A stretch of 64,000 nucleotides of DNA from Streptomyces djakartensis. GTDB taxonomy: Bacteria; Actinomycetota; Actinomycetes; Streptomycetales; Streptomycetaceae. The notes beneath the pieces are model-generated. The model had not been told where the DNA came from. It was given only the letters and a program-made list of their open reading frames with translations, and did not search any database. A program made the position numbers and the translations under genes. The stretch lies in contig NZ_BMWE01000014.1 in NCBI RefSeq assembly GCF_014651075.1, positions 62,001-126,000 on the forward strand, in the 5' to 3' direction. Shown here in pieces: positions 8,153-62,796 of the stretch (position 1 is its first letter; each line of letters begins with the position of its first letter).

Positions 8153-8175
8153 CGCGGTCGCAGTCGTGACGAAGT

Positions 8176-8213
8176 GGGGCCCGTGCCCGCGGACATCCGC
8201 GGGCACGGGCCCC
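8176..8213. terminator. bidirectional 18-bp hairpin terminator
   Basis: GGGGCCCGTGCCCGCGGA and its exact reverse complement are separated by two bases, between the convergent hydrolase and methyltransferase genes. Confidence 0.9.
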
Positions 8214-8224
8214 ATCCAGCGAAG

Positions 8225-9364
8225 TCAGCCGGCGGCATCCGGATTCGCCGCCAGCCGCCACAGCGAGGTCACTTCCGCCCTCCGGGCGGAGTGCAGGGGA
8301 TCGGCGGGGTCGTGGGCCCGGGGATGCAGCGGCCTGGCGTCAAGGCGCCCCACCACCGTCAGGCCGGCCCGGGCGAACAGTTCGGTCAGTTCCGTGCGGG
8401 AGCGCAACCCCAGGCGCTCGGCGAGATCGGAGATGACGAGCCATCCCTCACCGCCGGGTTCCAGATGGGTGGACAGCCCGTCGAGGAATCCGCGGAGCAT
8501 CCGGCTTCCCGGGTCGTACACCGCGTGGTCGAGCGGCGTCCGGGCCCTGCCGGGGAGCCATGGCGGGTTGCAGACAATCAGCGATGCCCGGCCGTCCGGG
8601 AACAGGTCGGCCTGTCGGATGTCCACAGTGGAGGACACGCCCAGTCGGTCGATGTTCTCCCGCGCGCAGGCGAGCGCACGAGCGTCGAGGTCCGTAGCCA
8701 CCACCCGCCGGACGCCGCGCCGCGCCAGGACGGCGGCCAGCACCCCCGTGCCGGTGCCGATGTCGAAGGCCGTGCCCCGCGACGGCAGCGGCGCCTCGGC
8801 CACCAGGTCGACGTACTCGCCCCGCACCGGGGAGAACACACCGTAGTGCGGCGTGATCGACTCGCCGAGCGCCGGCACGTGGACGCCCTTCTCGCGCCAT
8901 TCGGCGGCTCCGAGTACCCCCTGAAGCTCACGAAGTGACACAGCGTAGGGTTCGTGGCACTGCCCATACGCCTGCTCGCAGGCCAGCCGCACATCCGGGG
9001 CCCGGCGCAGGGGAATGACATGCCCCGCCTCGACCGGCAGGATCAGCATGCCCAGAATCCGCGCTCGCCTCGACCGCGTCTGACGGTACAGATGGAAGCT
9101 CTGCGCCGGTGACGTCCCGGGCTTCGGCGGTTTACGGTCGACGCGGCGTGCCAGCGCACGCAGTAACTGACGAGCGTTGTGGAAGTCACCGCTCCATAAC
9201 AGCGAGGTTCCTTCGCACGCCAGACGGAACGCAGCGTCGGCGTTCATCCGGTCATCGGCCACCAGTATCCGTTTCGGCGGCGGCGCGCCGCTCTCCGACC
9301 GCCACAGCGCGCGGCGCTCCTCTCCCGAACTCTCCAGCCAGCGAATGATCTCTTGCCTGTTCAC
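8225..9364 (-). CDS. class I SAM-dependent methyltransferase (MTS family)
   Basis: 379 aa. The C-terminal two thirds are a Rossmann methyltransferase: AdoMet loop FDIGTGTGVLAAVLA, acidic end VVATDLDARALACA, and the NPPW motif (LIVCNPPWLPGRA) that positions an amino or amide nitrogen in HemK/RsmC-like enzymes. The first 140 residues are an extra domain common to an actinobacterial subgroup of unknown target. The substrate could be a protein glutamine, rRNA or small molecule; nothing here decides. GTG at 9364 is the annotated start, with purine-rich GGGGATGATGAAGGG just upstream. It stands alone between two terminators, so it is probably monocistronic. Confidence 0.85.
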   Translation of the reverse strand: MNRQEIIRWLESSGEERRALWRSESGAPPPKRILVADDRMNADAAFRLACEGTSLLWSGDFHNARQLLRALARRVDRKPPKPGTSPAQSFHLYRQTRSRRARILGMLILPVEAGHVIPLRRAPDVRLACEQAYGQCHEPYAVSLRELQGVLGAAEWREKGVHVPALGESITPHYGVFSPVRGEYVDLVAEAPLPSRGTAFDIGTGTGVLAAVLARRGVRRVVATDLDARALACARENIDRLGVSSTVDIRQADLFPDGRASLIVCNPPWLPGRARTPLDHAVYDPGSRMLRGFLDGLSTHLEPGGEGWLVISDLAERLGLRSRTELTELFARAGLTVVGRLDARPLHPRAHDPADPLHSARRAEVTSLWRLAANPDAAG

Positions 9365-9482
9365 CCCTTCATCATCCCCGCGCCGCTGCCGGCCTTCGAC
9401 CGGTCGTGGCGGTCACCAGGCCCGCGTCGCGGTGTCGGACGTCCTCCCGGCGTCTCCCGGAAAACCCCTCGGAAACGGACCG

Positions 9483-9525
9483 ATGGCCGTGTCCCCGCCC
9501 TGGTTTCGGGCGGGGACACGGCCAT
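9483..9525 (-). terminator. 18-bp hairpin terminator of the lysyl oxidase gene
   Basis: ATGGCCGTGTCCCCGCCC (9483-9500) pairs perfectly with 9508-9525 across a 7-nt loop, just 3' of the lysyl oxidase gene stop on the minus strand. Confidence 0.88.
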
Positions 9526-9541
9526 GTCCGCGGGGGCGGGG

Positions 9542-11296
9542 TCAGTTGGCGTTCACCAGGTCGTGCGCCGGTACGGTGACCGTCCGCTTGTCCGGCTTGC
9601 CGCCGAGCACGATCTTCCGCAGGGCGCTGTTGTTGTCGAGGTTGGTTTCCTTCAGCCGCTTTTCCGGGTTGGCCAGCACCTGGATGTAGTAGGTGCCGTT
9701 GGGCACATCGGTGATGTCGAAGGACTGGCCGGGCAGGTCCTGGGTGTAAGTGTCGCCGGAGCCGACGTCCAGCACCTCGCGGACGGAGATCGAGTTCTCC
9801 TCACCGCAGGCGGTGGCCAGGTCCGTGTTGTACGGGTGCCAGTTGGCGTTCTTCACCGTGTAGTCGACGGCGTCGGTGTTGGCCAGGCAGAAGGCCTCCT
9901 TGCCGCTGCGCACGGCCTCCTTCTTGTCCGCCTTCAGCAGCCGGTAGCTGGCAAAGTCGGTGAAGTGCCAGTGCACGTGCCCCGGGCGCGGGTCCCACTC
10001 CATGGTGCCGGTCGGGGTGTAGCCGACCTGCTTGCCCTTGGCGTCGTAGAAGTACTGGAAGGCGTCCATCTTGGCCTTGCCGGGCGAGCGGAATCCGTCC
10101 ACCACTAGCTGTGCCGGGCCGGCGTTCCAGACGTTGGCGCTGAACGTCAGGTAGTCCTTGCCCGGGATGTCCTTCTCGCCGTCGCTGATGGTGATGCCGT
10201 AGGCAGGCAGCGAGCGCAGGTCCGGCTTGGGGACGTCCGGGACGGAGGGCTTGCCGGCGGGCCGCTTCGACAGCGGTTTCAGGGCGGGCGCCTGACGTGA
10301 TCCGTCGGTCTGGCCGCCGCCGTCCCCGGCCTGCGGAGACAGCGCGGCCTTCTGCTTCTTCAGCGCCCAGGGCAGAGCCGGCGGCGCGGCCCTCAGCGGA
10401 CCGTGGCCCACGTTGTACGAGGGACCCGCACCGCTCGTCACCGGCGCGGCTGCCTCGGCGGGGGACGGGGCGTGCCCCGGCCCGTGACCGGCGTGCGCGG
10501 CCGGCGCCTGGTGACCGGCAGCGTGCCCGGCGTGCTCGCCTGCCTTCGCGGACCGGGGCGCCGCCTCGGTGGCGCCCTCCTCGTCCTCGTAGCTGCCTTC
10601 CACCACGGTCACCTTGACCGTGGCCGCCCTGTCGGCAATGCCGAACAGGTCGCGGTACTTCTTGGCGACACGGACCTTGGCCGTGTACGTTCCGGCCGGC
10701 ACCTGGACGGGCTCGGTGTAGGAGCCCGCGTACGTGTTGGCCGCCCAGCCCTTCTCGACGCCCCACACGGAGCCGAGGGTGAAGGGGTTGGTGGGGCAGC
10801 TCTCCGGATACTTGGAGGTGGAGGGCGCGTCGGGCCGCACTCGGCCGCTGGCGTTGTTCGGGCAGAAGTCCTCGAAGCGGGTGAGGACCTTCTTGCCGGC
10901 TTTGTCGGTGAGGGTGACCTCCGCGAAGCCGGGAAGCCCGGAGAAGTCCTTCACGGTGCCCGCCGGCAGCTTCTTCGCCTTGGCCTTGCCGCCCTCGTAC
11001 ACGGTCTGGGTGACAGTGACCGGGTCCTTGTAGGACTTGCGGGTCACCTTGAGCTCGAGCGGCTTGCCCTCGGCGATGAGGTAAGTGCCGAGGTCCAAGT
11101 ACACACCCGGCTCCTCCTTGTAGGAGGTGAGCTTCACCGAGGTGGTCGCCGCGATGAGGCTCAGCTCGGGGCCCTTCGCGGCCTTCGCCGGTTTCTGCGC
11201 TGCGGCCACGATGCCGGCCGTCACGGCCGTCACGGCGATGGCCGTGGTTCCGGCGAGCAGCGTACGGCGCAGCCGAGCGGTGCGCTTTCTGGTCAT
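9542..11296 (-). CDS. secreted lysyl-oxidase-family copper protein
   Basis: 584 aa, starting at ATG 11296 behind GAGGGAA; a longer in-frame start at 11374 lacks a ribosome site and would bury the signal peptide (RTLLAGTTAIAVTAVTAGIV). The C-terminal 200 residues match the lysyl oxidase domain: GTMEWDPRPGHVHWHFTDFA with the HxHxH copper ligands, ANWHPYNTDLATACG, and the terminal GTYYIQVLANPEKRLKETNLDNN. Lysyl oxidases deaminate peptidyl lysine using Cu and a lysine-tyrosylquinone cofactor. The N-terminal region is beta-rich and cysteine-bearing (FEDFCPNN, YPESCPTN). A linker near residues 270-305 is unusually histidine-rich (GEHAGHAAGHQAPAAHAGHG) and may buffer copper. Role in the mycelial envelope or extracellular matrix is inference. 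Confidence 0.88.
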   Translation of the reverse strand: MTRKRTARLRRTLLAGTTAIAVTAVTAGIVAAAQKPAKAAKGPELSLIAATTSVKLTSYKEEPGVYLDLGTYLIAEGKPLELKVTRKSYKDPVTVTQTVYEGGKAKAKKLPAGTVKDFSGLPGFAEVTLTDKAGKKVLTRFEDFCPNNASGRVRPDAPSTSKYPESCPTNPFTLGSVWGVEKGWAANTYAGSYTEPVQVPAGTYTAKVRVAKKYRDLFGIADRAATVKVTVVEGSYEDEEGATEAAPRSAKAGEHAGHAAGHQAPAAHAGHGPGHAPSPAEAAAPVTSGAGPSYNVGHGPLRAAPPALPWALKKQKAALSPQAGDGGGQTDGSRQAPALKPLSKRPAGKPSVPDVPKPDLRSLPAYGITISDGEKDIPGKDYLTFSANVWNAGPAQLVVDGFRSPGKAKMDAFQYFYDAKGKQVGYTPTGTMEWDPRPGHVHWHFTDFASYRLLKADKKEAVRSGKEAFCLANTDAVDYTVKNANWHPYNTDLATACGEENSISVREVLDVGSGDTYTQDLPGQSFDITDVPNGTYYIQVLANPEKRLKETNLDNNSALRKIVLGGKPDKRTVTVPAHDLVNAN

Positions 11297-11962
11297 GGTT
11301 CCCTCGTTCTCCGGTGCTGTGAGAAGGAAGCAGGCGGCACGGCGCGTCGCGGAAGTCCGGGCCAGGGCCGTCACGTGAGGGGCGTTTGCTTCGCCCGCAG
11401 TGTGAGAGGAACGGGCCGGGTCCCCGGTTGTCCGAGAGACGGAAAAAGAGCGGGTGTTTGGCTGAATGCCGTCGTGGTGACGAGATCCGGCCGTTGCCGG
11501 CTCACCTCACCTGCCGCTCCGGCGCATTCGGCGCCGCACCGCTGGCCCTGGCCGGTGTGGTCGTCGGCCGGCTGGCTCCGGCCCGCTCGCGCCGCATCGG
11601 CTGACACCAGCGAATACGAGCGCGCGTCCGGGGATGCCTGATGGGCCATCAGCCTTGTTGCGTCACGGTGACCGTGACCAACGGGACGAACGCCAGGCCT
11701 TCTCCGCTGTCAGCACCCGGCGGGGTTCCGACACTCCGCAGGCGACGGCGGGTTCCCGCCGGGCATGGCGGTCGCCGAGGCACTGGGCCCGCACCCGGAG
11801 GCGACGTGACGGCGGGCGTCCCGGGTGATGTCCACGGTGCCGGGAGTGGGGAAAACACCTCCACAGCTTCGCTGAGACCGGGGAAGGGGCGCTTCGACCT
11901 CCCCAGGCGTGGACGGCCCTTCCCCGGTCGGCACCGTCCGTCTACCCCGGCACTCCGCCGCC
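11297..11962. other. 666-bp stretch without a supportable gene
   Basis: Open frames here lack ribosome sites, family motifs and normal third-position bias. Together with the decayed gene that follows, it looks like degraded DNA between the lysyl oxidase gene promoter and the DUF6328 gene. Confidence 0.5.
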
Positions 11963-12358
11963 ATGCCCGGCCTGCCCTGTGTGCACGGCCGCCGTCAGGT
12001 GATCGAGCAGGTCCTGGGGCATCGCCTCCTGCCCGGTCACGTCCGCGCATCGCGGCCCTGGCCTGCCGCCTACCGCGCCTTCGGCACCGACCCGCGCCGC
12101 ATCCGGCCCAGCGTCGACGCCCTCGGCCGCCGCATGGCCAAGAAGGGCACGCTGCCCCGCATCAACCCGGCCGTCGGCGCCTCCCGGCCGGGGGTTCTCG
12201 ATGGTGTCGGGTTCGCCAAGATCGTCTACACCGACACCACCGATGTGCTCACCCGGCACTGGAACCACCGTGACGCCCACCGCACCCGCGTCACCGAAGA
12301 CTCCGCCCACGTCCCCTTCGTCCTGGAGACCGTCGACTGCCTGACTCCACCCCCTTGA
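11963..12358 (+). pseudogene. remnant of a B3/B4 (PheT-type tRNA-binding) domain protein
   Basis: The translation keeps two blocks of the stand-alone B3/B4 domain family, the domain also found in the phenylalanyl-tRNA synthetase beta chain. The front block is YRAFGTDPRRIRPSVDALGR followed by KKGTLPRIN; the rear block is VYTDTTDVLTRHWNHRDAHR followed by TRVTEDSAHVPFVLETVD. Intact members carry about 60 residues between these blocks (the conserved VD.YNA..VRH segment and the strand after it); here they are joined by only about 15, indicating an internal deletion. The N-terminus is also short and has no ribosome binding site. Intact proteins are thought to act on tRNA or mischarged substrates; this copy is most likely non-functional. 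Confidence 0.6.
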
Positions 12359-12465
12359 AGTCCGCCCTGGCGTCCGGCGCCGGGCCGGATGCCGCTCCTC
12401 CCTCTTCACCTGCATGGAAGGCACCACGGCGGGGCAAGCGGACTCTCTGAATTGGGGAGGATGCC

Positions 12466-13041
12466 ATGACCATGACGCAGCAGCCCGTCGAGCCGGAGGA
12501 CAAGAGCACCGCTTGCTGTGCGCGGCACCACAGCGGAAGCACGAGCACGAAGCCCGGGGCCGAAGCACCCGAAGCAGCGCATGAACGGGTCAACCGCCGC
12601 TGGAACGAGATACTTCAGGAGACTCGGGTCACCCAGACCGGCGTGCAGATCCTCTTCGGTTTTCTGCTCAGCGTGGCCTTCACCCCCCTGTTCAGGGAAC
12701 TGCAGACGCTGGACCGCGCCATCTACGTCGCCACCGTGGTGCTCGGCGCGGCGGCTACCGGATCGCTCATCGCACCCGTCTCCATCCACCGCTTCCTGTC
12801 CGGTCAGCGGATGAAGGACGATCTGGTGAAGGCCGCCGGCCGCTTGATGATGTGCGGCATGGTCCTGCTCGCCCTGACCATCGGCTGCACACTGCTGCTG
12901 ATTCTCCGTTTCGTCGTTCCCGGCGTGCTCGCGGAGGTGCTCGTCGGCGGGGTCATGCTGTGGTTCGGCCTCTGCTGGTACGTGCTGCCGCTGTACCTGC
13001 GACGCCGCGCCGATCGGCGCTCCCGCACACCCGACGCGTAG
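12466..13041 (+). CDS. DUF6328-type multi-pass membrane protein
   Basis: 191 aa, ATG behind GGGGAGGA. A soluble N-terminus of about 50 residues is followed by the family core RWNEILQETRVTQTGVQILF and four hydrophobic segments (about 62-78, 84-105, 122-145 and 150-172). This arrangement matches the actinobacterial DUF6328 family of unknown function. It precedes a separate small hydrophobic protein gene by 195 bp. No catalytic motif is visible; a role in membrane stress or transport would be a guess. Confidence 0.8.
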   Translation: MTMTQQPVEPEDKSTACCARHHSGSTSTKPGAEAPEAAHERVNRRWNEILQETRVTQTGVQILFGFLLSVAFTPLFRELQTLDRAIYVATVVLGAAATGSLIAPVSIHRFLSGQRMKDDLVKAAGRLMMCGMVLLALTIGCTLLLILRFVVPGVLAEVLVGGVMLWFGLCWYVLPLYLRRRADRRSRTPDA

Positions 13042-13236
13042 CCGCTTCGCGACCTGGGGCGGGTGGACGGGGGCGTTCCGCTCGACCCCAGCCCCGGTCA
13101 CCGGGTCATGCGTCGGACGCGCGGACGGACGTGATGAAACTGGGTTCAGTTCCCGCAAGAACAGTGAAGAAACCAGGGAGATCGGCCGTATGTTCTTCGA
13201 ATCGCCGGGCACACGGAGCGACGGAGGTCGATAACT

Positions 13237-13407
13237 ATGGTTCCCCTGCTTCTCGTTCTGCTTCTGGCTCTGATCCTCTTCGGCGCGGGATTCGCGCTGA
13301 AGGCCCTGTGGTGGATCGCCGTCATCGTGCTCGTCGTCTGGCTGCTGGGCTTCGTGATGCGCAGTGCGGACACAGGCGGCCGCAAGAGCCGCTGGTATCG
13401 CTGGTAA
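13237..13407 (+). CDS. small hydrophobic membrane protein (56 aa)
   Basis: ATG at 13237 with GGAGGT (13223-13228) 8 nt upstream. The product is almost entirely two membrane segments (VPLLLVLLLALILFGAGFAL; LWWIAVIVLVVWLLGFVM) with a short basic end GGRKSRWYRW. Proteins of this length and tail recur in Streptomyces and other actinomycetes as 'hydrophobic protein', often with stress-associated genes; function unknown. A hairpin terminator follows 22 nt after the stop, so it forms a complete small transcription unit. Confidence 0.82.
   Translation: MVPLLLVLLLALILFGAGFALKALWWIAVIVLVVWLLGFVMRSADTGGRKSRWYRW

Positions 13408-22428: not shown

Positions 22429-22429
<1 letters not shown>
21842..22429 (-). 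CDS. response regulator (REC) with coiled-coil tail, no DNA-binding domain
   Basis: 195 aa. A receiver domain (residues about 10-130) has the acidic pair in ILIVDDMEEN, phosphoacceptor Asp59 in VVLLDVRMPGMDG, the switch Thr in LVTGTEGG and Lys in FIAKPVDPW. The remaining 65 residues are charged and helical (LAEITERLTEIVLLLRDR...) with no output domain. The ATG at 22429 overlaps the stop of the poly-HAMP hybrid kinase gene (TGATG), so the two are translationally coupled and the kinase is the likely phosphodonor. The output probably works by protein interaction, perhaps with the divergent phosphatase; that is inference. Confidence 0.9.
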
Positions 22430-26739
<4,310 letters not shown>

Positions 26740-26789
26740 GACAGCTCACTTCTTCGGACAAACGCACCGTGTCTCCCATTTAGGCTACA

Positions 26790-26808
26790 TTCGTCCTGTA
26801 TTCGTCCG
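26790..26808. promoter_or_regulatory. 11-bp-phased direct repeat in the divergent kinase/phosphatase promoter
   Basis: ATTCGTCC occurs at 26790-26797 and 26801-26808, one helical turn apart, in the 93-bp region between the hybrid kinase and the SpoIIE gene. Such phased repeats are typical of OmpR/PhoP-type regulators. Confidence 0.4.
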
Positions 26809-26832
26809 CAGTCACTCGGCGAGGGGTTGCCG

Positions 26833-28722
26833 ATGGGACCACGAACGGGGTCGTCTTCGGGACCGCGTGCGGCAGCGAGAATGCGTGTACCGGCCAACGA
26901 GATGGCGGCCTCAGCGGCGCGCAGGTTCGTAAGGGCCGTGCTCGTCGAACGGACCCCACCGCACTCCCCCGGGGTGCCGACGATCAGTGAACGCTCCGTC
27001 GACGACGCCGTGCTCCTCGTCAGCGAACTGGTCACCGGCGCTGTCGCGCACGCCGGGTTCGAGATCGAGTTGGCCTGCCACCTGGAGGCCGGCCCCGGCC
27101 CCCCGGCCGACGGCGCGCGGGCGGAGGCGGGGTGGGTGGATGTCGTGGTCGAGGTGCTGGAACGCGGCCCCTCGGAAGGCCTCGGCGACGTGAAGAGCGT
27201 ACGGAGTTACGGGCGCGGCTACGGCAAGCAGCTGATGCGCGCCTTGGCCGAGTCCTGGGGCGTGACCCACCGGCGGACCGAAAAGGCCACCTGGTTCCGT
27301 CTGGAATGCGCGGTCGTGACCCCGCTCGCCACCCCGAAGGAGAGCGTCGGCGGCCCCCTCACCGAGGCCGTCCGCCTCGGGCCGTCCCTTCCCGAGCCCC
27401 TCGTGCCGGGCGAGCGCCCCGGTCACCGGGCCTTGTGGGCCGAGCGCGAAGGACAGTGGTTCCTCGCCGAGGCCGGAGAGCTCCTCGCCGGCCAGCTGGA
27501 CGAGGACATGGTCGCCGCGCTCGCCGGCCAGCTTCTGGTGCCCCGGCTCGCCGACTGGTGCGCTGTGTGGCTGACCTCGGACCAGGCCCAGATGCGGCTC
27601 TCCCGGGTCTGGCACATGAACGAACGGCGTATCCGCAGGCTCCGCCTGGCCCTGGAGAAGGACCGCCCGTCCGCCGGGCTGAGCACGACCGGCGTCCCCT
27701 GGCCCTGGCCCGACTTCGCGGACGAGGAGAACACCGGTGGCTCGGCGCTGGCGTTCCCCCTGGTCGCGGGCGGCCGATACCACGGCACGCTTCTGATCGG
27801 CCAGGCTGGACTGCCCGACCTGACCGACACCGTCGTGCGGCTCGTCGAGGACGTGGCCCGGCGCATGGCGCAGGCCGTGGTCACCGCCCGCCACTACACA
27901 CGGCAGGCGAGCATCAGCCGGACCCTTCAACGCAGGCAGCTCCCCACGTCCCTCGCCGCCATTCCGGGCGTCGACACGGCGATCGTCTACGAGCCCTGGG
28001 GAGAGGGCCAGACCGTCGGCGGGGACTTCTACGACCTGTTCCCGATGGGGGACCGACGGTGGTGCTTCCTGCTCGGCGACGTGTCCGGCCACGACGTCGA
28101 GGCGATGTCCGTCACCGGCCTGGCCCGGCACCTCGTACGGCTGCTGGCGCGTGAGGGCCACGGTGTCGGGACGCTGCTCAAGCGGTTGAACCTCGCCATG
28201 GCGGAGGAGGCGGCCGAGGCCATGAGGGTCCGCGGCGAACAGGAGGGTTCCCGCTTCCTGAGCCTGCTGTACGGGGAGTTGGAGCCCGATCCGGTCGACG
28301 GCGGCACCCGGTGCACGATCGCCAGCGCCGGGCACCCACCGCCGCTGCGGCTGGCGACGGACGGCACCGTGACGCCGGCCGCGAGCCCGCAGATCCTGCT
28401 CGGGGTCGAGAAGGACGCCGAGTTCCACGCCGACTCCTTCACCCTGGCTCCGGGCGAGACACTGCTGTGTGTGACCGATGGTGTGACCGAACGCCGCAGC
28501 GGCGCAAGGCAGTTGGACGACGACGACGGCCTTGCCGAGGTGCTGCGAGGGTGCAGGGGACTCGGCGCGAAGGCCGTGGCGGAACGGGTCCGGCGGGCGG
28601 CCCACGACTTCAGCGCCGAGCCGCTCGACGACGACCTCGCCATCCTGGTGCTGGAGGCCGTACCGGTGCTCAGGAGCGCCGCGGCCGTGGCGACGCCTCT
28701 CCGGGGTGACCGGACCGGCTGA
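26833..28722 (+). CDS. SpoIIE-type serine phosphatase with N-terminal ATPase-like and GAF-like domains
   Basis: 629 aa from ATG 26833 with GAGGGG 6 nt upstream; the frame is open far upstream but only as antisense to the kinase gene. Residues about 10-170 resemble a GHKL anti-sigma kinase (VDDAVLLVSELVTGAVAHAG; RSYGRGYGKQLMRALAESWG). Residues 190-350 are GAF-like. The PP2C/SpoIIE phosphatase follows (about 375-615): VGGDFYDLFPMGDRR, CFLLGDVSGHDVEAM, ASAGHPPPLRL, CVTDGVTERR and LDDDLAILVLE with the metal-binding aspartates. Such proteins dephosphorylate STAS anti-anti-sigma factors; the ATPase-like part could supply the opposing kinase. Divergent from the hybrid kinase, hence probably the same pathway. 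Confidence 0.9.
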   Translation: MGPRTGSSSGPRAAARMRVPANEMAASAARRFVRAVLVERTPPHSPGVPTISERSVDDAVLLVSELVTGAVAHAGFEIELACHLEAGPGPPADGARAEAGWVDVVVEVLERGPSEGLGDVKSVRSYGRGYGKQLMRALAESWGVTHRRTEKATWFRLECAVVTPLATPKESVGGPLTEAVRLGPSLPEPLVPGERPGHRALWAEREGQWFLAEAGELLAGQLDEDMVAALAGQLLVPRLADWCAVWLTSDQAQMRLSRVWHMNERRIRRLRLALEKDRPSAGLSTTGVPWPWPDFADEENTGGSALAFPLVAGGRYHGTLLIGQAGLPDLTDTVVRLVEDVARRMAQAVVTARHYTRQASISRTLQRRQLPTSLAAIPGVDTAIVYEPWGEGQTVGGDFYDLFPMGDRRWCFLLGDVSGHDVEAMSVTGLARHLVRLLAREGHGVGTLLKRLNLAMAEEAAEAMRVRGEQEGSRFLSLLYGELEPDPVDGGTRCTIASAGHPPPLRLATDGTVTPAASPQILLGVEKDAEFHADSFTLAPGETLLCVTDGVTERRSGARQLDDDDGLAEVLRGCRGLGAKAVAERVRRAAHDFSAEPLDDDLAILVLEAVPVLRSAAAVATPLRGDRTG

Positions 28723-28740: not shown

Positions 28741-28929
28741 CACCCCGCGCTGCGGCGGGGCCGTCGGAGGCCGGGCCATAGCCGTGTGCGTCCGTTCCGG
28801 GGCCACCGGCCCGGGCCGGGTCCGGCGCTCGGTCCGGGCGCCGGAGCGGGGCGGCCGTGGAACAGTGGTGGAGAGCGAACGGGCGCCTGTGGGGTTCGCG
28901 GCCCGCGGGCCCGGACGAAGGAGGCCAGG

Positions 28930-29793
28930 GTGCGTCTTCCTGTGCTGGCGGGTGTCGACGGATCCGGCTCCGGCGCGGCGGCGGCCGGCTGGGCTGCGCG
29001 GGAGGCCGCGCTGCGGGGCGTCCCGCTGCGGCTGTTCCACGCCTCTCCGCCGCTTCCAGGGGCCACCGTGCCGGCCGCGGCCCTGGATCGGTTGCACCAG
29101 ATGGGTGACTGGTTGCTCGAGCGCCTGGTCACGGACCTCGGCGATCGCCACCCGGACCTCGAGGTGCGAGTCGAGCAGGCGGACGAAGCCCCGGCCGCGG
29201 CGCTCCTCGCCGCGGCCCGTGATGCCGGACTCCTCGTCATCGGCATGCGCGGGACGGGCGGCTTCGATGGTCTGGCGGTCGGCTCGGTGGCCCTGCGCAC
29301 GGCGGCGGCCGCCCCGTGCCCTGTCGTGCTCGTCCCCCACCGCTGCGGTGGCCTGCCCGACGGGCAGGTCGTGCTGGGGTTCGACGGGCGCCGGCCGGCC
29401 GGCGAGGTGGCCGACTTCGCCTTCTCGGCCGCCGAGGCACGCGGAGCGCGTCTGCGCGTGGTGCAGGCCTGGGCGTTTCCCGCCGAGTCCGTCTCCGCCC
29501 GGATGCCGGTGGTGACCGAGGAGGACCGCGCCACGTGGGAGGACCAGGAGGTTCTGCTGCTCTCGGACGCGCTGCGGGCCTGGCGGGAGAAGTATCCCGG
29601 CGTCAGGGTCGGCACCGATGTCATGCTGCTGCACCCCGCCGAGGCGCTGCTGAACGCCTCCCGGGGTGCGGGCCTGCTCGTGGTGGGGCGCCGCACCGAT
29701 CCCAGGGCCGCCGAAGGCCGGCTGGGTCCGGTCGCACACGCGGTACTGCACCACGCCCGCTGCCCGGTGGCGGTCGTACCCCACGGCGGGTGA
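28930..29793 (+). CDS. universal stress protein with two UspA domains
   Basis: 287 aa. GTG at 28930 has AAGGAGG (28918-28924) 5 nt upstream. Two UspA units: the first opens VLAGVDGSGSGAAAAGWAAR and closes LLVIGMRGTGGFDGLAVGSV plus PCPVVLVPH; the second opens VVLGFDGRRPAGEVADFAFS and closes GLLVVGRRTD...CPVAVVPHGG. The ATP-binding glycine motif GxxGxxxxGSV is kept in the first domain but altered in the second (RRTDPRAAEGRLGPVAHAV). Tandem Usp proteins in actinomycetes accumulate in hypoxia, starvation and dormancy. It is convergent with pfk, 7 bp apart. Confidence 0.92.
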   Translation: MRLPVLAGVDGSGSGAAAAGWAAREAALRGVPLRLFHASPPLPGATVPAAALDRLHQMGDWLLERLVTDLGDRHPDLEVRVEQADEAPAAALLAAARDAGLLVIGMRGTGGFDGLAVGSVALRTAAAAPCPVVLVPHRCGGLPDGQVVLGFDGRRPAGEVADFAFSAAEARGARLRVVQAWAFPAESVSARMPVVTEEDRATWEDQEVLLLSDALRAWREKYPGVRVGTDVMLLHPAEALLNASRGAGLLVVGRRTDPRAAEGRLGPVAHAVLHHARCPVAVVPHGG

Positions 29794-29800
29794 GGGCCGG

Positions 29801-30826
29801 TCAGCCGTAGAACACCTCGAACTCGTCGTACAGCGACGGATCGACCACCTTGTTCGCCCCGGTGGCGTCGGCGAGAGGGAGGCGGACGATCCGCGTGCCC
29901 CGCAGGGCGACCATGACGCCGAAGTCACCGTCCTTGACCGCGTCGATGGCGTGCAGCCCGAAGCGGGTGGCCAGCCACCGGTCGAAGGCGCTCGGGGTGC
30001 CGCCGCGCTGGATGTGGCCCAGCACCGTGGTGCGGGCGTCCTTCTCGGTGCGGGCCGAGATCTCCCGGGCCAGCCATTCGCCGATGCCGGACAGCCGCAC
30101 ATGGCCGAACTCGTCCAGTGACTGGTCCTTGAGAACCATCTGCCCGTCCTTGGGCACGGCCCCTTCGGCGACGACGACGATCGGCGCGTAGTTGATCTCG
30201 AATCGGCGTTTCACCTGCTCACAGACCTGATCGATGTCGAACGGCCGCTCGGGGATGAGGATCACGTTGGCGCCGCCCGCGATGCCGGCGTGCAGGGCGA
30301 TCCATCCGGAGTGCCGTCCCATCACCTCCACCACGAGGGCGCGCATGTGCGACTCGGCGGTGGTGTGGAGGCGGTCGATCGCCTCCGTCGCGATTCCCAC
30401 GGCGGTGTCGAAGCCGAAGGTGTAGTCGGTGCCCGAGACGTCGTTGTCGATGGTCTTCGGCACGCCGACCAGGTTGATCCCCTGCCGGCTCAGCTCCCTG
30501 GCCGCTCCCAGCGTGTCCTCGCCGCCGATCACGACGAGCGCGTCCACCTCGTGCGTGGCGAGGGTCTCCCGTACCCGTCGCAGCCCGTCCTCGTGCTTGA
30601 ACGGGTTGGTGCGGGAGCTCCCGAGAATGGTCCCGCCGCGCGGGAGAATGCCCCGCACGCCGGCGATGTCCAGGGGAACGACGTCGTTCTTGAGCAGACC
30701 GAGCCAGCCGTCCCGCACACCGACGAAGTCGAAGGCGTATTCCTGGACGCCTTTGCGCACGACGCTGCGGATCACCGCGTTGAGCCCGGGACAGTCACCG
30801 CCACCGGTGAGAACTCCGACCTTCAT
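29801..30826 (-). CDS. 6-phosphofructokinase, predicted pyrophosphate-dependent
   Basis: 341 aa from ATG 30826 behind GGGAGAAGG. Phosphorylates fructose 6-phosphate in glycolysis. The family motifs are GVLTGGGDCPGLNAVIRS, PRGGTILGSSRTNPF, KTIDNDVSGTDYTFGFDTA (catalytic TIDND), EVMGRHSGWIA and LGHIQRGGTPSAFDR. At the phosphoryl-donor site it has GGEDT with Asp104 and Lys124 (numbering as in E. coli PFK, where these are Gly and Gly); Asp104/Lys124 is the signature of PPi-dependent PFKs. So it likely uses PPi reversibly rather than ATP. It is convergent with the Usp gene and runs the same way as the DUF998 gene 88 bp upstream. Confidence 0.93.
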   Translation of the reverse strand: MKVGVLTGGGDCPGLNAVIRSVVRKGVQEYAFDFVGVRDGWLGLLKNDVVPLDIAGVRGILPRGGTILGSSRTNPFKHEDGLRRVRETLATHEVDALVVIGGEDTLGAARELSRQGINLVGVPKTIDNDVSGTDYTFGFDTAVGIATEAIDRLHTTAESHMRALVVEVMGRHSGWIALHAGIAGGANVILIPERPFDIDQVCEQVKRRFEINYAPIVVVAEGAVPKDGQMVLKDQSLDEFGHVRLSGIGEWLAREISARTEKDARTTVLGHIQRGGTPSAFDRWLATRFGLHAIDAVKDGDFGVMVALRGTRIVRLPLADATGANKVVDPSLYDEFEVFYG

Positions 30827-30914: not shown

Positions 30915-31514
30915 TCAGACCGGGAACCGGTCGCGCGCCGAGCGGTGCAGGCAGGAGAGGACCACCACGAGAGGCCAGAGGGACTGGAGGGTCGTCACCG
31001 CGCGTTCGGCCACGCCCGGGGCGCCTTGCAGCTGAAGCTCCACCAGGAACCAGGCCATGCCCACCGCCATCGCGGCGGTGGCGCCGAGGGAGGGAAGCGG
31101 GCGCAGCCCCCACGGCACGGCGCCACCCGTTCGGGCGGCCAGGACCGGCCAGGCGGCCAGGAAGGAGAAACCGACGGCGGCGATCGAACCGTGGCTCAGG
31201 GAGCCACCGCTGCTCGGTGCCGGGATCACCGCCACCGCCAGGGCCGCGACGCCGCCCGCCGCCAGCGCCAGGCGGCCGGGTGTCGCGGCGGGGCGGAGCC
31301 CCCAGGAGGTGAGGAGGTGGCAGGCGCCCACGGCGACGAAGGCTCCCGTCATCACCCAGGAGCCCGAGGTTCCGGGGGCCGCCAGGACACTGATCGTCTG
31401 AGCGGCTGGGTCGTAGGCGGGGCCGTGCAGTGATGCGGCCACCATCCAGCCGAGAACCAGGACGGCAGGCGCGCAGCTCGACGGCAGCAGTACCCATTTA
31501 GGGACAGATCGCAT
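30915..31514 (-). CDS. DUF998-family membrane protein
   Basis: 199 aa from ATG 31514. Six predicted membrane helices begin with VLLPSSCAPAVLVLGWMVAA and the family's PAAQTISVLAAPGTSGSWVM loop (typical 'iS.L...g..g..m' of DUF998). The conserved short loops suggest a transport or lipid-handling role, but function is not known. It is divergent from the phosphate permease gene across a 118-bp region holding an AACGGG-CGA-CCCGTT inverted repeat, and lies upstream of pfk on the same strand. Confidence 0.78.
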   Translation of the reverse strand: MRSVPKWVLLPSSCAPAVLVLGWMVAASLHGPAYDPAAQTISVLAAPGTSGSWVMTGAFVAVGACHLLTSWGLRPAATPGRLALAAGGVAALAVAVIPAPSSGGSLSHGSIAAVGFSFLAAWPVLAARTGGAVPWGLRPLPSLGATAAMAVGMAWFLVELQLQGAPGVAERAVTTLQSLWPLVVVLSCLHRSARDRFPV

Positions 31515-31527
31515 CGAGACACCGTAA

Positions 31528-31542
31528 AACGGGCGACCCGTT
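31528..31542. promoter_or_regulatory. inverted repeat in the DUF998/pit divergent promoter
   Basis: AACGGG-CGA-CCCGTT, a perfect 6-bp inverted repeat placed 13 bp before the DUF998 start, suitable as an operator for one or both genes. Confidence 0.35.
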
Positions 31543-31632
31543 CTTCCTGTGCCACCACTGCGGCTCCTGGCGCGTCCCCCGGCGGCTTTCGCGGCACGAT
31601 GGGTCCGTGCGGCTGCGGAAAGGCGATCGGGC

Positions 31633-32631
31633 ATGGAGCTCACTCTGGTGGTGCTGATCATCGTCGTGGGACTGACGTTCGACTTCACCAACGGTTTCCA
31701 CGACGCGGCGAACGCCATCGCCACCTCGATCTCCACCAGGGCCCTGACGCCACGTGTGGCGCTGGTCATGGCGGCGGTGATGAATTTCTTCGGCGCCTTC
31801 CTGGGGACCGGGGTCGCCGAGACCGTCGGCAGTGGCATCATCGGCGCGCCCGAGGACACCTCGGGCCTGCTGCTGGTCCTGTGCGCTCTCCTCGGAGCCA
31901 TCGGGTGGAACGTCTTCACCTGGTGGCGGGGGCTGCCCACCTCGTCCTCGCACGCGCTGATCGGCGGGCTCGTCGGCGCCGCCCTCGCCGCCTCCGCCTC
32001 GGTTCACTGGTCCGGCATCGTGGACAAGGTCATCCTGCCGATGCTGCTGTCCCCACTGGTCGGTGTGTTGCTGGGGTACGCGCTGCACACGGCCATCCTG
32101 TGGATCTTCCGCCGTGCGACTCCCCGGCGCACCGTGCGCCGCTTCCGTATGGCACAGACCGTGTCCGCCGCGGCCATGGGGCTGGGCCACGGGCTTCAGG
32201 ACGCGCAGAAGACCATGGGGGTCATCGTGCTCGCCCTGGTCACGGCGGGCTGGCAGGACGACTTCTCCGTCCCCACCTGGGTGATCGCCGCCGTGGCGGC
32301 CGCCATGGCCGCAGGGACCTACAGCGGCGGACGACGCATCATCACCACCCTCGGCCGGCGCATCGTGCACCTCGATCCCCCGCGCGGCTTCGCCGCCGAG
32401 ACCGCCGCCGCGACCGTTCTCTACACGACCGCGTTCCTGGTGAAGGCGCCGATCTCCACCACGCAGACGATCACCGCGGCCATTCTGGGCGCCGGTGCCA
32501 CCCGGCGTGCCTCCGCGGTGCGCTGGCAGGTGGCCCGCTCGATCGTCACCGCCTGGGTCCTGACGTTCTTCGGGGCCGGGGTTCCCGCCGCCGCGATCTA
32601 TCTGGTTCTGCATCACCTCACCGGGGCGTGA
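31633..32631 (+). CDS. pit: PiT-family low-affinity inorganic phosphate transporter
   Basis: 332 aa, H+- or metal-phosphate-coupled permease. ATG at 31633 (AAAGG upstream) puts the first helix at the start. The PiT signature appears twice as expected: GLTFDFTNGFHDAANAIATS near the N-terminus with the GFHDAAN motif, and AMGLGHGLQDAQKTMGVIVL in the middle, each followed by a P-T/I-S-S/T-T-(S/Q) loop (GLPTSSSHALIGGL; KAPISTTQTITAAILG). Eight to ten helices are predicted. No PhoU-like gene adjoins it, and no clear PHO box was seen in its promoter. A link with the PPi-type PFK nearby, both handling phosphate economy, is speculative. Confidence 0.93.
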   Translation: MELTLVVLIIVVGLTFDFTNGFHDAANAIATSISTRALTPRVALVMAAVMNFFGAFLGTGVAETVGSGIIGAPEDTSGLLLVLCALLGAIGWNVFTWWRGLPTSSSHALIGGLVGAALAASASVHWSGIVDKVILPMLLSPLVGVLLGYALHTAILWIFRRATPRRTVRRFRMAQTVSAAAMGLGHGLQDAQKTMGVIVLALVTAGWQDDFSVPTWVIAAVAAAMAAGTYSGGRRIITTLGRRIVHLDPPRGFAAETAAATVLYTTAFLVKAPISTTQTITAAILGAGATRRASAVRWQVARSIVTAWVLTFFGAGVPAAAIYLVLHHLTGA

Positions 32632-32770: not shown

Positions 32771-33601
32771 ATGTCCCGCACCGGCACGACGGACGACGGC
32801 GACGAGCTGCTGACCAGGCTCGGCACCCTGACCGCGCAGGCGCGTGCGCAGGCCGAGATGCAGCGGTCGCGGGTCGAGCTCGCCATCGCGCTGCAGCGTG
32901 GCATGCTGCCGCGGGATCTGCCCGTCGCCCACCGGCTGCATCTGGCCGTCCGGTACGCCCCCGCCTGCCAGGGGCTCAACGTGGGCGGTGACTGGTACGA
33001 CGCCTTCCCGCTGGGCGACGGACGTATCGGCCTGTCCATCGGTGACGTCCAGGGACACAACATCGAGGCGGCCGCCTTCATGGGGCAGGTGCGGGCGGGG
33101 ATGCGGGCCCTGGCCTCCGTCACCGGGGACCCGGGCGAGGTCCTCGCCCGGACCAACGGGCTGCTGCTGTCCCTGGGCTCCGATCTGTTCGCCACCTGCA
33201 CGTTCATGCGGCTCGACCCGTGTGCCGGTGTGCTGGAGAGCGCGCGGGCGGGGCATCTGCCGTGCGTGTGGGCCACCGCGGACGGGAAGTCCGGCGTCAC
33301 GGAGGACGAGGGCGGGCCGCCGCTCGGCGTCCAGGCGGGCCTGCCGTACCCGGTGACCCGGTACGAGCTCACCACCGGCGGTGTCTTCGCGCTGCTCACG
33401 GACGGAGTCGTGGAGGGACCGTCGATGCGGCTCGAGGAGGGCCTGGACCAGGCGGTCCGGCTCGTCGGCATCGCGGCCGTGGCGGCCCTGGACGTGGACG
33501 CGCTCGCGGCTGCCCTGATCAAGGGCGCCGAGCGCGTGGGTCACGACGACGACGCCGCCGTTCTGGTGGTGGGCCTCGACGGGCCGGACGCTCAGCCGTA
33601 G
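32771..33601 (+). CDS. stand-alone SpoIIE/PP2C-type serine phosphatase
   Basis: 276 aa, ATG behind GGAGTG. After a helical lead-in (RSRVELAIALQRGMLPRDLP, the linker typical just before SpoIIE domains) comes the phosphatase: LNVGGDWYDAFPLGDGRI, LSIGDVQGHNIEAAAFMG, ESARAGHLPCVW, FALLTDGVVEGPSMRLEEG and GHDDDAAVLVVG with the metal-site aspartates. It lacks any sensor domain. The next gene, 100 bp on, encodes a MASE1 membrane sensor without an output domain, an arrangement that looks like a split receptor-phosphatase. Likely target is a phosphorylated STAS protein. Confidence 0.92.
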   Translation: MSRTGTTDDGDELLTRLGTLTAQARAQAEMQRSRVELAIALQRGMLPRDLPVAHRLHLAVRYAPACQGLNVGGDWYDAFPLGDGRIGLSIGDVQGHNIEAAAFMGQVRAGMRALASVTGDPGEVLARTNGLLLSLGSDLFATCTFMRLDPCAGVLESARAGHLPCVWATADGKSGVTEDEGGPPLGVQAGLPYPVTRYELTTGGVFALLTDGVVEGPSMRLEEGLDQAVRLVGIAAVAALDVDALAAALIKGAERVGHDDDAAVLVVGLDGPDAQP

Positions 33602-33701: not shown

Positions 33702-34712
33702 ATGGCTGCTGTGGTGGGTAGCCAGGATCCGCGTGCGCCGGTCGTCGTCGTTCTGCAAGCGCTGGCCGTCGCCGCCTGCTACTACGTCTCCGGGCAGCTG
33801 GGTCTGCTGCGGGAACTGGTCGTCGGGGGCTCGGTCGTCACCCCCATCTGGCCTCCCACCGGCGTATCGGTCGCCTTCCTGCTGATCTTCGGGCCGCGCT
33901 GCTGGCCGGGCATCGCCCTGGGGGCCTTCTTCGTCATCATGTCCCTCACCACCCTCAGCCCTTCGGTGTTCGGCGTGCTGGTGGGAAACACGGCCGCGCC
34001 GGTCGTGGGGTACCTGCTGCTGCGCCGGGCCGGTTTCCGTACCGACCTCGCCCGGCTGCGGGACGGTCTCGCCCTGGTGTTCCTGGGCGCCTTCACCGCC
34101 ATGCTGATCAGCTCGACGGTGGGCGCCGGCCTGCTGCTCGTCACGGACAAGGTCGACTGGCCGGATTTCTGGGCCGTGTGGCTGGCCTGGTGGGTGGGCG
34201 ACGCGATGGGCGTGCTGCTCGTCACCCCCGTGCTGCTTCTGCTGTCCCGCGTCCGCCGGCCGCTGCGGCTGACACGCTGGAAGGAGGTTCTGGGACTGGC
34301 GCTGATCGCCTGCTGCGTCGTTCCGCTGGCCGCGCACAGCTCGATCAGCGTGATGTTCCTCGTCTACCCGCTGCTGATCTGGGCAGCTCTGCGTTTCCAG
34401 CTGGCGGGCAGCATGCTGTGCGCGCTCGTCGCCTCCGTCCTGGCGACGGTGGCGGCGACCGACCGGAGCGGGCCGTTCGAGCGGCTGACCCGGGTGGAGG
34501 TGATGATCAAGCTGCAGGCCTTCAACGGGGCGATGGCTCTGACGGCCCTGATCCTCTCGGCGGTGATCACCGAGCAGATCAACACCCGGCGTTCGGTGGA
34601 GCACGCCTGCCAGGAGCTGGTCGAGGTCCTTGAGCATCTCACCGCGGGCGAGCCGGCCGACGGCCGGGCCGCCGCGGAGGAGGGCACGCCCGGACGGACG
34701 GAGGGCGAATGA
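33702..34712 (+). CDS. stand-alone MASE1 membrane sensor protein
   Basis: 336 aa. Eight predicted membrane helices form a MASE1 domain: YYVSGQLGLLRELVVGGSVV followed by TPIWPPTGVSVAFLLIFGPR (the conserved P-x-W-P-P-T-G), PGIALGAFF, GNTAAPVVGYLLLRR and WWVGDAMGVLLVTPVLLLL. In other proteins MASE1 is fused N-terminally to histidine kinases, diguanylate cyclases or SpoIIE phosphatases. Here only a 45-residue charged tail (QELVEVLEHLTAGEPAD...) follows the last helix. The preceding phosphatase gene is the probable partner. The ligand of MASE1 domains is not established. Confidence 0.85.
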   Translation: MAAVVGSQDPRAPVVVVLQALAVAACYYVSGQLGLLRELVVGGSVVTPIWPPTGVSVAFLLIFGPRCWPGIALGAFFVIMSLTTLSPSVFGVLVGNTAAPVVGYLLLRRAGFRTDLARLRDGLALVFLGAFTAMLISSTVGAGLLLVTDKVDWPDFWAVWLAWWVGDAMGVLLVTPVLLLLSRVRRPLRLTRWKEVLGLALIACCVVPLAAHSSISVMFLVYPLLIWAALRFQLAGSMLCALVASVLATVAATDRSGPFERLTRVEVMIKLQAFNGAMALTALILSAVITEQINTRRSVEHACQELVEVLEHLTAGEPADGRAAAEEGTPGRTEGE

Positions 34713-41183: not shown

Positions 41184-43433
<2,250 letters not shown>

Positions 43434-43460
43434 TCACGGTGCTCGGGTGGATCACATCGC

Positions 43461-43898
43461 TCAGGGATTGCGGGCGGTGGAGCAGGCGGGGCACAGGCCC
43501 CAGTAGATGACCTCGGCCTCGTCGACGGCGAAGCCCCGGTCGTCGGACGCGGTCAGGCACGGGGCATGGCCCACCGCGCAGTCGACGTCGGCGACGGTCC
43601 CGCACGACCGGCACACGAGGTGGTGGTGGTTGTCGCCGACCCGTCCCTCGTAGAGGGCCGGGCTGCCCGGCGGGTCGAGGCGGCGTATGAGTCCCGCCGC
43701 GGTGAGTGCGTGGAGCCCCTCGTAGACGGCCTGGACGGAGATGTGGCCGACGCGGCCGCGCACCTCGGAGGCGATCGCCTCGGCGCCGAGGTGGTCACCG
43801 TCCCGCACGGTCTCGAGCAGCGCGACGCGGGCGGCCGTCACCCGCAGGCCGGCACCGCGCAGCTCCTCGGCGGTGGTCGGGTTCCGGGATGCGGTCAT
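43461..43898 (-). CDS. furA: Fur-family regulator FurA of katG
   Basis: 145 aa from ATG 43898. Winged-helix N-terminal domain (EELRGAGLRVTAARVALLET; ISVQAVYEGLHALTAAGLIR) and a C-terminal metal-binding dimerisation domain with HHHLVCRSCGTVADVDC and a final LCPACSTARNP supplying the CxxC pairs for structural zinc. This is the FurA/CatR type that represses its own operon and katG, and releases DNA on peroxide oxidation. An in-frame GTG at 43916 would add six residues, but a -10-like hexamer ends 7 nt before the ATG, suggesting transcription begins at the ATG. There is no ribosome binding site. Confidence 0.93.
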   Translation of the reverse strand: MTASRNPTTAEELRGAGLRVTAARVALLETVRDGDHLGAEAIASEVRGRVGHISVQAVYEGLHALTAAGLIRRLDPPGSPALYEGRVGDNHHHLVCRSCGTVADVDCAVGHAPCLTASDDRGFAVDEAEVIYWGLCPACSTARNP

Positions 43899-43905
43899 GG
43901 CGGAC

Positions 43906-43935
43906 AACCTATCCACACAAACACGAGTGATTCAA
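43906..43935 (-). promoter_or_regulatory. furA promoter, probably leaderless
   Basis: Minus-strand TTGAAT (43935-43930), an 18-nt spacer and TAGGTT (43911-43906). Seven bases later comes the furA ATG, so the mRNA should start at or next to the start codon. The surrounding 45 bp are unusually AT-rich and would hold the FurA operator. Confidence 0.6.
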
Positions 43936-49841: not shown

Positions 49842-51287
49842 GTGACTGCCAACGAGGACTCCTTCACCAACTGGAAGAACCGCGAGGAGATCGCGGAGTC
49901 GATGATCCCGATCATCGGGAAGCTGCACCGGGAGCGGGACGTGACCGTCCTGCTGCACAGCCGCTCCCTGGTGAACAAGTCGGTGGTCAGCATCCTCAAG
50001 ACCCACCGGTTCGCCCGGCAGATCGCCGGTGCGGAGCTGTCGGTCACCGACACGCTGCCGTTCCTCGAGAGCCTCGCCGGACTCGACCTCGGGCCGTCCC
50101 AGATCGACATCGGCATGCTCGCCGCGACGTACCGCGAGGACGACCGCGGTCTGTCGGTCGCGGAGTTCACCGCCGAGGCCGTCGCCGGTGCCACCGGCGC
50201 CAACAAGATCGAGCGCCGCGAGGGACGCGACGTCGTCCTGTACGGCTTCGGCCGCATCGGCCGGCTCGTGGCCCGGCTGCTCATCGAGAAGGCCGGTTCG
50301 GGCAACGGCCTGCGGCTGCGGGCCATCGTCGTGCGCGGGGGCGGTGAGCAGGACATCGTCAAGCGCGCCTCGCTGCTGCGCCGCGACTCGATCCACGGCC
50401 AGTTCCAGGGCACGATCACCGTCGACGAAGCGACCAGCACGATCGTGGCCAACGGCAACGAGATCAAGGTCATCTACGCGAACGACCCGTCCGAGATCGA
50501 TTACACGGCGTACGGCATCAAGGACGCCATCCTCATCGACAACACCGGCAAGTGGCGCGACCGCGAGGGCCTGTCCGAGCACCTGCGTCCCGGCATCGAC
50601 AAGGTCGTCCTGACCGCGCCCGGCAAGGGCGACGTCCCGAACATCGTGCACGGCGTCAACCACGACACCATCAAGCCGGACGAGCGGATCCTGTCCTGCG
50701 CGTCCTGCACCACGAACGCCATCGTGCCGCCGCTGAAGGCGATGGACGACGAGTTCGGGGTCCAGCGCGGCCACGTGGAGACCGTCCACTCCTTCACCAA
50801 CGACCAGAACCTGCTGGACAACTACCACAAGTCCGAGCGCCGGGGCCGGTCCGCGCCGCTCAACATGGTGATCACGGAGACGGGCGCCGCCTCCGCCGTC
50901 GCCAAGGCTCTTCCCGACCTCAAGGCGAAGATCACCGGCAGCTCCATCCGGGTCCCGGTGCCGGACGTGTCCATCGCGATCCTCAACCTTCAGCTCGCGC
51001 GTGAGACCGACCGCCAGGAGGTCCTCGACTACCTGCGTGAGGTGTCCCTGACCTCGCCGCTGAAGCGTCAGATCGACTTCATCAGCGCGCCCGACGCGGT
51101 CTCCAGCGACTTCATCGGCTCGCGGCACGCCTCGATCGTCGACGCCGGCGCCACCAAGGTCGAGGGCGACAACGCGATCCTGTACCTGTGGTACGACAAC
51201 GAGTTCGGCTACTCCTGCCAGGTCATCCGGGTCGTGCAGCATGTGTCGGGGGTGGAGTACCCGACGTACCCGGCCCCGGCGGTCTGA
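49842..51287 (+). CDS. gap: long-form glyceraldehyde-3-phosphate dehydrogenase
   Basis: 481 aa against about 335 for standard GAPDH: an extra 125-residue N-terminal region (KNREEIAESMIPIIGKLHRE ... ATGANKIERR) precedes the NAD-binding domain, which starts VVLYGFGRIGRLVARLL. The catalytic cysteine is Cys289 in SCASCTTNAIVPPL, with the partner His in HVETVHSFTNDQNLLDNYH, then SERRGRSAPLNMVITETGAA and the late YLWYDNEFGYSCQVIRV. It oxidises glyceraldehyde 3-phosphate with phosphate in glycolysis. GTG at 49842 is used, because the nearby ATG at 49834 is out of frame. The extension may alter oligomer state, cofactor use or partner binding. Confidence 0.95.
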   Translation: MTANEDSFTNWKNREEIAESMIPIIGKLHRERDVTVLLHSRSLVNKSVVSILKTHRFARQIAGAELSVTDTLPFLESLAGLDLGPSQIDIGMLAATYREDDRGLSVAEFTAEAVAGATGANKIERREGRDVVLYGFGRIGRLVARLLIEKAGSGNGLRLRAIVVRGGGEQDIVKRASLLRRDSIHGQFQGTITVDEATSTIVANGNEIKVIYANDPSEIDYTAYGIKDAILIDNTGKWRDREGLSEHLRPGIDKVVLTAPGKGDVPNIVHGVNHDTIKPDERILSCASCTTNAIVPPLKAMDDEFGVQRGHVETVHSFTNDQNLLDNYHKSERRGRSAPLNMVITETGAASAVAKALPDLKAKITGSSIRVPVPDVSIAILNLQLARETDRQEVLDYLREVSLTSPLKRQIDFISAPDAVSSDFIGSRHASIVDAGATKVEGDNAILYLWYDNEFGYSCQVIRVVQHVSGVEYPTYPAPAV

Positions 51288-62770: not shown

Positions 62771-62796
62771 GGTCCTGCAAGGGGGGACGAACGTCC

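Follow-up and report, generated by a model that had tools for sequence, protein, structure and literature searches.

The phosphofructokinase (PFK) encoded on the minus strand of the window, the 64,000-nucleotide stretch of Streptomyces djakartensis DNA that was analyzed, is best read as a reversible PPi-dependent enzyme that serves as an accessory, stress-associated isoenzyme, with a universal stress protein (USP) as its partner and sometimes an FBP aldolase. This reading is given a probability of roughly 60%. The use of PPi instead of ATP is very probable from the residues of the donor site, and reversibility, induction by stress, and any role of the USP each carry about even odds. Enzymes of this type seem to be common in Streptomyces, and the unusual point is that the window copy falls in a distinct lineage with links to USP and aldolase genes. 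The gene and the two donor-site codons, whose positions were calculated from the start codon (30826), are as follows:

29801-30826, minus strand: predicted PPi-type phosphofructokinase (PFK-A, mixed-substrate group III), W clade, 341 aa (translation, profiles, alignment, tree)
30515-30517, minus strand: codon of Asp104, the residue that discriminates between phosphate donors
30455-30457, minus strand: codon of Lys124, which is common to the Gly104 paralogues and so nondiscriminating here

Translation of the minus strand of 29801-30826 gives 341 residues and a stop, and translation of the plus strand gives no PFK. The motifs GGEDT and PKTIDND start at residues 101 and 123, which places an aspartate at position 104 and a lysine at position 124. 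These numbers coincide with positions 104 and 124 of the Escherichia coli enzyme in the alignment to K-12 PfkA (reference DNA from NC_000913.3), where both are glycines. Asp104 and Lys124, as named in the original prediction, are therefore borne out by direct count and by alignment. The profile TIGR02483 (PFK_mixed) scores 497.1 bits over residues 2-321, above its cut-off of 430.55, and PF00365 scores 369.8 bits; the NCBIfam "ATP-dependent" subfamily PRK03202 also takes in the protein (424.8 bits vs 253). The residues that we take to be the catalytic and F6P residues of PFKs (D127, D129, R162, M169, R171, E222, R243, H249, and R252 in E. coli numbering) all match E. coli. Among the positions that presumably make up the allosteric effector site of the E. 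coli enzyme, R54, D59, R154, E187, K211, K213, and H215 are changed and R21, R25, D151, and G185 are kept; most of the changed positions differ in the Gly104 paralogues too. Comparison with eight relatives yields a dN/dS of ∼0.10-0.23 (dN 0.03-0.09, dS 0.28-0.44), which indicates that the gene is under constraint and maintained.

Passages of PMC11609450 describe a conserved Asp of PPi-PFKs that stands in place of Gly104, anchors PPi, and blocks the adenine moiety. In the same passages, the Asp-to-Gly substitution in the Entamoeba histolytica PFK moved donor specificity toward ATP, and an excerpt of PMC5931981 gives an 18-fold better Km for ATP for this substitution. Asp104 can thus be regarded as a good predictor of PPi use, and the predicted PPi dependence of the window enzyme is well supported by this published discriminating residue. 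The original prediction had further treated Asp104 and Lys124 as a pair that distinguishes PPi- from ATP-dependent enzymes. The Asp104 half of this statement stands, but Lys124 is present in both Gly104 paralogues of the genome as well, so only Asp104 carries a donor signal here. Asp104 and Lys124 occur together in 134 of 134 distinct D-type sequences, in which the 18 positions checked vary only at 108 (Ala, Val, or Thr) and 271 (one Tyr).

Contrary to the rarity of PPi-type PFKs in Streptomyces that the original prediction implied, such enzymes seem to be widespread. In a survey of 200 Streptomyces genomes (minimum completeness 95), the best match had an E-value of 4.4e-137 or better in 157 genomes, a score range in which the residue was read in part of the genomes and proved to be Asp104 in all 134 distinct sequences read; 43 genomes had weaker matches only (9.7e-122 or worse). 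The best matches of G029, G040, G083, and G193 lie between 1e-137 and 1e-148. In the phylum sample, 66 of 197 genomes had a match with an E-value of ≤1e-110, within which both types occur, and the 22 loci from other genera (L102-L123, 60-66% identity) all have Asp104. By their residues, Asp104 PFKs look ordinary in Streptomyces, and most of them look like the core copy.

The Asp104 loci of Streptomyces split into two groups by residue 130 (Val or Leu) and by the tree: the W clade, which is the window type with Val130, and the V clade, which is the core copy with Leu130. The W sequences (45) form one branch with an SH-aLRT value of 97 in a quick tree of 92 rows, built without bootstrap and with a long outgroup branch that leaves the root unsure. 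The named loci are the best 80 among the matches listed and lean toward close relatives. W enzymes occur in at least 30 of the 200 genomes, and all 30 read Asp104, Lys124, and Val130. The position of the W gene on large contigs is not fixed, with distances to a contig end between 0.16 Mb (G051) and >5 Mb (G157). The eleven largest V neighbor clusters hold no W locus. Branch and placement together point to W as a separate accessory lineage that is found at variable positions.

The flanks were clustered with a crude ORF caller based on G+C that missed most USPs, and tblastn was used for the USP counts instead. The clustering left out L001, L084-L089, all loci of <7000 bases, and those with a PFK protein that the set already contained; the phylum loci L095-L123 are short and hence lie outside the 60 V loci. 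A gene ∼5.3 kb upstream of the PFK is common to 48 of these 60 loci and, recognized by eye, appears to be a ROK-type glucokinase. Since SCO2126 is a glucose kinase in passages of PMC8981147, the V clade probably represents SCO2119 (pfkA1), an assignment made by synteny with the Streptomyces coelicolor sequence outside the comparison. The same passages list SCO2119 among ATP-consuming enzymes, a label that the residues would contradict if V is indeed SCO2119. The window PFK is 76-78% identical to three core (V) copies.

The paralogue count proposed as a check in the original prediction comes to three in the window genome (PF00365 search). The other two PFKs (L154 and L155) both have Gly104 and Lys124; they share 73.9% identity, and their identity to the window PFK is 55-57%. 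In passages of PMC12727718, SCO1214 and SCO5426 are 72% identical and SCO2119 is the more distant of the three. The identities in the window genome fit this three-way pattern, and L154 and L155 are probable counterparts of SCO5426 (pfkA2) and SCO1214 (pfkA3), whose sequences lay outside the comparison. The syntenic core-PFK locus of the window genome is L161 (C27:12500-30000), where the PFK gene is missing at ∼6883-6945: positions 4835-6846 and 8109-13240 of the intact locus L021 align to positions 4876-6883 and 6945-12081 of L161, and the PFK of L021 (7001-8026) has no counterpart. Because the core copy is missing and the other two PFKs carry Gly104, the window PFK is the only Asp104 PFK found in its genome.

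Four PFK matches were found in 26 of the 30 W genomes, so V is apparently present there too. The other four W genomes have three matches (the window's, G011, G117, and G122), and the absence of V from G117 and G122 is deduced from this count. W as a genus-wide compensation for loss of the core copy was considered and rejected, as V is absent from 4/30 W genomes vs 43/170 others (p = 0.24). With respect to PPi, the window genome encodes one H+-PPase and three PPDK_N-family proteins (frames of 995, 934, and 909 aa; PPDK or PEP synthase), and thus plausibly contains both sources and sinks. A GlpX FBPase is present, so the window PFK is not needed for gluconeogenesis. Contig C5 of the window genome (G000) holds a PPDK_N-family gene and, at a distance of ∼12 kb, a cluster of USP genes (∼116.8-117.8 kb and 129.6-131.4 kb), a layout that recalls the USP/PPDK pair in the OsdR region of S. 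coelicolor.

Next to the 3′ end of the PFK gene lies the following feature:

28786-29793, plus strand: universal stress protein with tandem domains, whose ORF converges on that of the PFK at a spacing of 7 bp (PF00582 5.4e-41, two stretches)

The true start of the USP is probably near 28927, judging from where the domain begins. Its first domain holds a G-2x-G-9x-GS motif at ORF residue 153, which we take to be the ATP-binding signature of USPs. This neighbor, already pointed out in the original prediction, turned out to be a conserved partner: a convergent USP lies within 200 bp of the PFK 3′ end at 30 of the 45 W loci (window included) vs 0 of the 60 V loci, the latter searched by tblastn in flanks of up to 7 kb a side. 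The PFK-adjacent USPs are 53-75% identical to that of the window, and other USPs in those flanks are 31-42% identical to it. A convergent USP is missing at 15 of the 45 W loci, among them L150 with only 260 bp of downstream sequence. The adjacent USPs share a single orientation and a single USP group across the deepest split of W, which makes a chance linkage unlikely. When 96 flanking ORFs at 16 of the 45 W loci were scanned against Pfam, Usp came out as the most frequent family (13 members), with 6 each for the HATPase domains and 5 for sigma-70 region 4.

At some W loci, an aldolase gene joins the pair. At L005, L013, L125, L131, and L133, it sits immediately past the USP, in the orientation of the PFK; at a sixth locus, L142, which lacks the USP, it directly follows the PFK, and L139 contains fragments only. 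Among solved structures, this first aldolase matches the FBP aldolases 4moz (2e-17) and 1ojx (class I, 1.2e-11) as well as a putative aldolase. At L020 (9289-10200) and L047 (9204-10112), the same slot beside the PFK-USP pair is occupied by a second class I aldolase, an archaeal-type FBP aldolase that is ∼30% identical to the first and, with the L020 protein as query, matches class I 1ojx at 4.3e-57. The flanks of 36 of the 45 W loci, including those of the window, showed neither aldolase and no fragment, and the first aldolase has no match in the genome of the window.

Near-full-length copies of the first aldolase are found in only 8 of the 200 genomes, a count that leaves out a partial second aldolase hit in G085 and a 31% hit in G138 (the second aldolase type). 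Seven of the eight lie beside an intact or decayed W PFK. The PFK is intact and within ∼1.5 kb in G046, G100, G140, G164, and G181. In G085 and G095, it is decayed or truncated and nearer to W than to V (325 vs 270 and 165 vs 137 bits, respectively); G095 additionally has a USP-like stretch near the aldolase and an intact W gene elsewhere. In G064, there is no PFK beside the aldolase and a USP is ∼3 kb away. The decayed or truncated W-type PFKs beside an intact aldolase are seen at L163 (∼5251-5841) and L164 (∼4607-5387). The aldolase is present in 6/30 W genomes vs 2/170 others (Fisher p = 1.6e-4, not corrected for shared ancestry).

Two further neighbors lie on the upstream side of the PFK:

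30915-31940, minus strand: ORF with a DUF998 domain (residues 157-328; domain scan), between the PFK and the permease
31549-32631, plus strand: PHO4-family phosphate permease, probably a chance neighbor (PF01384 9.7e-91)

The phosphate permease, which the original prediction had put forward together with the USP, is present as described and is not conserved. It was rejected as a functional partner, since it was found in the flanks of 0 of the 44 other W loci (L126 having only 331 bp of upstream sequence). The DUF998 ORF was likewise rejected as an operon partner, having been found in the window and at 0 of the 44 other W loci. Control by OsdR/DevR was also considered, by means of a position matrix for the 16-bp palindrome that was built from the 13 sites listed in the relevant part of PMC5069765. 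The best score upstream of the window PFK is 0.2 vs 13.5-19.0 for the listed sites, which are those that built the matrix. Scores of ≥9 occur in 3/45 W upstream regions and 0/60 V upstream regions vs 4.9% of random pieces of W loci, so there is no enrichment, and this control was rejected on the negative box search. Five OsdR-type sites of ≥9 lie in the window, including one at 29793 (10.4), between the ends of the USP and PFK genes, and one at 62783 (13.5), the sole site in the window that reaches the lowest listed score; all five are read as chance.

Several other genes of the window are recorded here as observations. A hybrid histidine kinase of 1436 aa, encoded at 22429-26739 (minus strand), combines six or seven HAMP repeats with GAF, HisKA, HATPase, and response-regulator domains. 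A phosphatase of the GAF-SpoIIE type lies directly upstream of the USP in the 3′ part of the frame 23167-28722 (plus strand), and further SpoIIE and MASE1 genes are found at 32771-33601 and 33702-34712. Two Hsp20-family genes lie close together at 410-832 (minus strand) and 1166-1594 (plus strand), as would fit a region rich in stress genes. The gene at 41184-43916 (minus strand) adjoins that of a Fur-family regulator and encodes a protein of 741 aa with two peroxidase stretches, which is probably a catalase-peroxidase. A second glycolytic gene, for a long (481 aa) glyceraldehyde-3-phosphate dehydrogenase, is located at 49842-51287 (plus strand), ∼19 kb from the PFK.

The window enzyme resembles several described systems in part. 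The PPi-PFK of Amycolatopsis methanolica (pfp), likewise actinobacterial, is presumably a short PFK-A with Asp104 and Lys124. It is PPi-dependent and was measured in both directions according to passages of PMC10339645, and is tied to glucose and methanol metabolism by the titles cited there; those passages mention no USP link, and it is set beside the window PFK by description. The core V enzyme of Streptomyces shares Asp104, Lys124, and the active site with the window PFK but sits at a conserved syntenic locus without a USP and outside the W branch. The probable counterparts of the ATP-PFKs SCO5426 and SCO1214 differ by Gly104. The structure 1ojx, matched by the second W-linked aldolase, we take to be the FBP aldolase of Thermoproteus tenax, with its gene beside pfp, and we know of no USP link of the T. 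tenax PPi-PFK. That enzyme uses PPi likewise (passages of PMC11609450) and is archaeal, of a different lineage. In Mycobacterium tuberculosis, Rv2028c-Rv2031c (USP - PfkB - Rv2030c - HspX) places a PFK beside a USP, as in W, and is hypoxia-induced in passages of PMC4410610. There, the PFK is PfkB-like (resembling E. coli isozyme 2), is predicted to use ATP, and belongs to one operon, whereas the window PFK is a PFK-A of PPi type that is convergent with its USP, and no dormancy box was found for it.

In the proposed mechanism, the PFK would catalyze F6P + PPi <-> FBP + Pi reversibly. Asp104 would replace the Gly that accommodates the α-phosphate of ATP, so that the nucleotide would be excluded and PPi anchored, with the rest of the active site unchanged. 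The W PFK would travel as an accessory copy with its convergent USP and sometimes the FBP aldolase. As growth slows down, such a module may run F6P <-> FBP <-> triose phosphates reversibly with PPi in place of ATP, and the USP would be a stress partner that binds adenylates. The evidence for a stress role is gene linkage, which makes energy-sparing glycolysis under stress, as hinted at in the original prediction, a reasonable inference. A more far-reaching proposal is speculative: PFK, USP, and aldolase would form a portable, PPi-run upper-glycolysis module that works reversibly without ATP and is switched on when adenylates fall, with the ATP-binding USP as sensor or partner, and that has replaced a lost core PPi-PFK in some lineages including this one.

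Two alternatives concern the identity of the enzyme. Use of ATP, or of both donors, despite Asp104 is improbable. The family name "mixed-substrate" and the match to PRK03202 would allow for it, and passages of PMC12727718 and PMC8981147 label the probable core relative SCO2119 ATP-dependent or ATP-consuming, without an assay of that isoenzyme alone; yet Asp104 is the published PPi signature and invariant in the 134 distinct relatives, and both paralogues in the genome retain Gly104. That the window PFK is merely the core SCO2119 ortholog at a new position is very hard to maintain. It shares the key residues and the stated identity with the core copies and is the only D104 enzyme of its genome, but the W sequences form a branch of their own, four PFK matches in most W genomes are consistent with the presence of both copies, and the core locus of the window genome is retained in synteny with its PFK gene missing. 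Compared with SCO2119 (V), the window PFK lies on a different branch and in a different neighborhood.

The other two alternatives accept a PPi-PFK and question its setting. Its main task may not be glycolytic and could be PPi scavenging, the reverse reaction to F6P + PPi, or phosphorylation of sedoheptulose 7-phosphate (S7P). PPi-PFKs are reversible and some use S7P in passages of PMC10339645 and PMC12203962, and two Gly104 PFKs are available for ATP-driven glycolysis; the aldolase linkage, however, points to flux between F6P, FBP, and triose phosphates in either direction, and this alternative is considered unlikely. Similarly doubtful is a passive linkage, in which USP and aldolase are co-located with the PFK in accessory stress islands without functional coupling. 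USPs are plentiful (33 Usp-domain matches in the window genome, further USPs at several W loci) and a third of the W loci lack the partner, but the adjacent USPs form one closer group in a fixed orientation, and the rare first aldolase in seven of eight cases keeps to W PFKs, even where these are decayed. The accessory, stress-associated PPi-PFK with a USP partner remains the preferred reading.

In the literature searched, no description of a PPi-PFK/USP/aldolase module in Streptomyces was found, and an earlier PPi assay of PfkA1 is possible. Passages of an S. coelicolor glycolysis paper (PMC12727718) describe all three PFKs of that species as ATP-dependent. Judging from the residues, most Streptomyces species may have one PPi-type PFK, and about one in seven a second, which is linked to a stress protein. 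If this holds, reversible flux driven by PPi at the PFK step would have gone unnoticed in antibiotic producers, and the conserved PFK-USP pair would open a direct route to the question of how USPs act on central metabolism.
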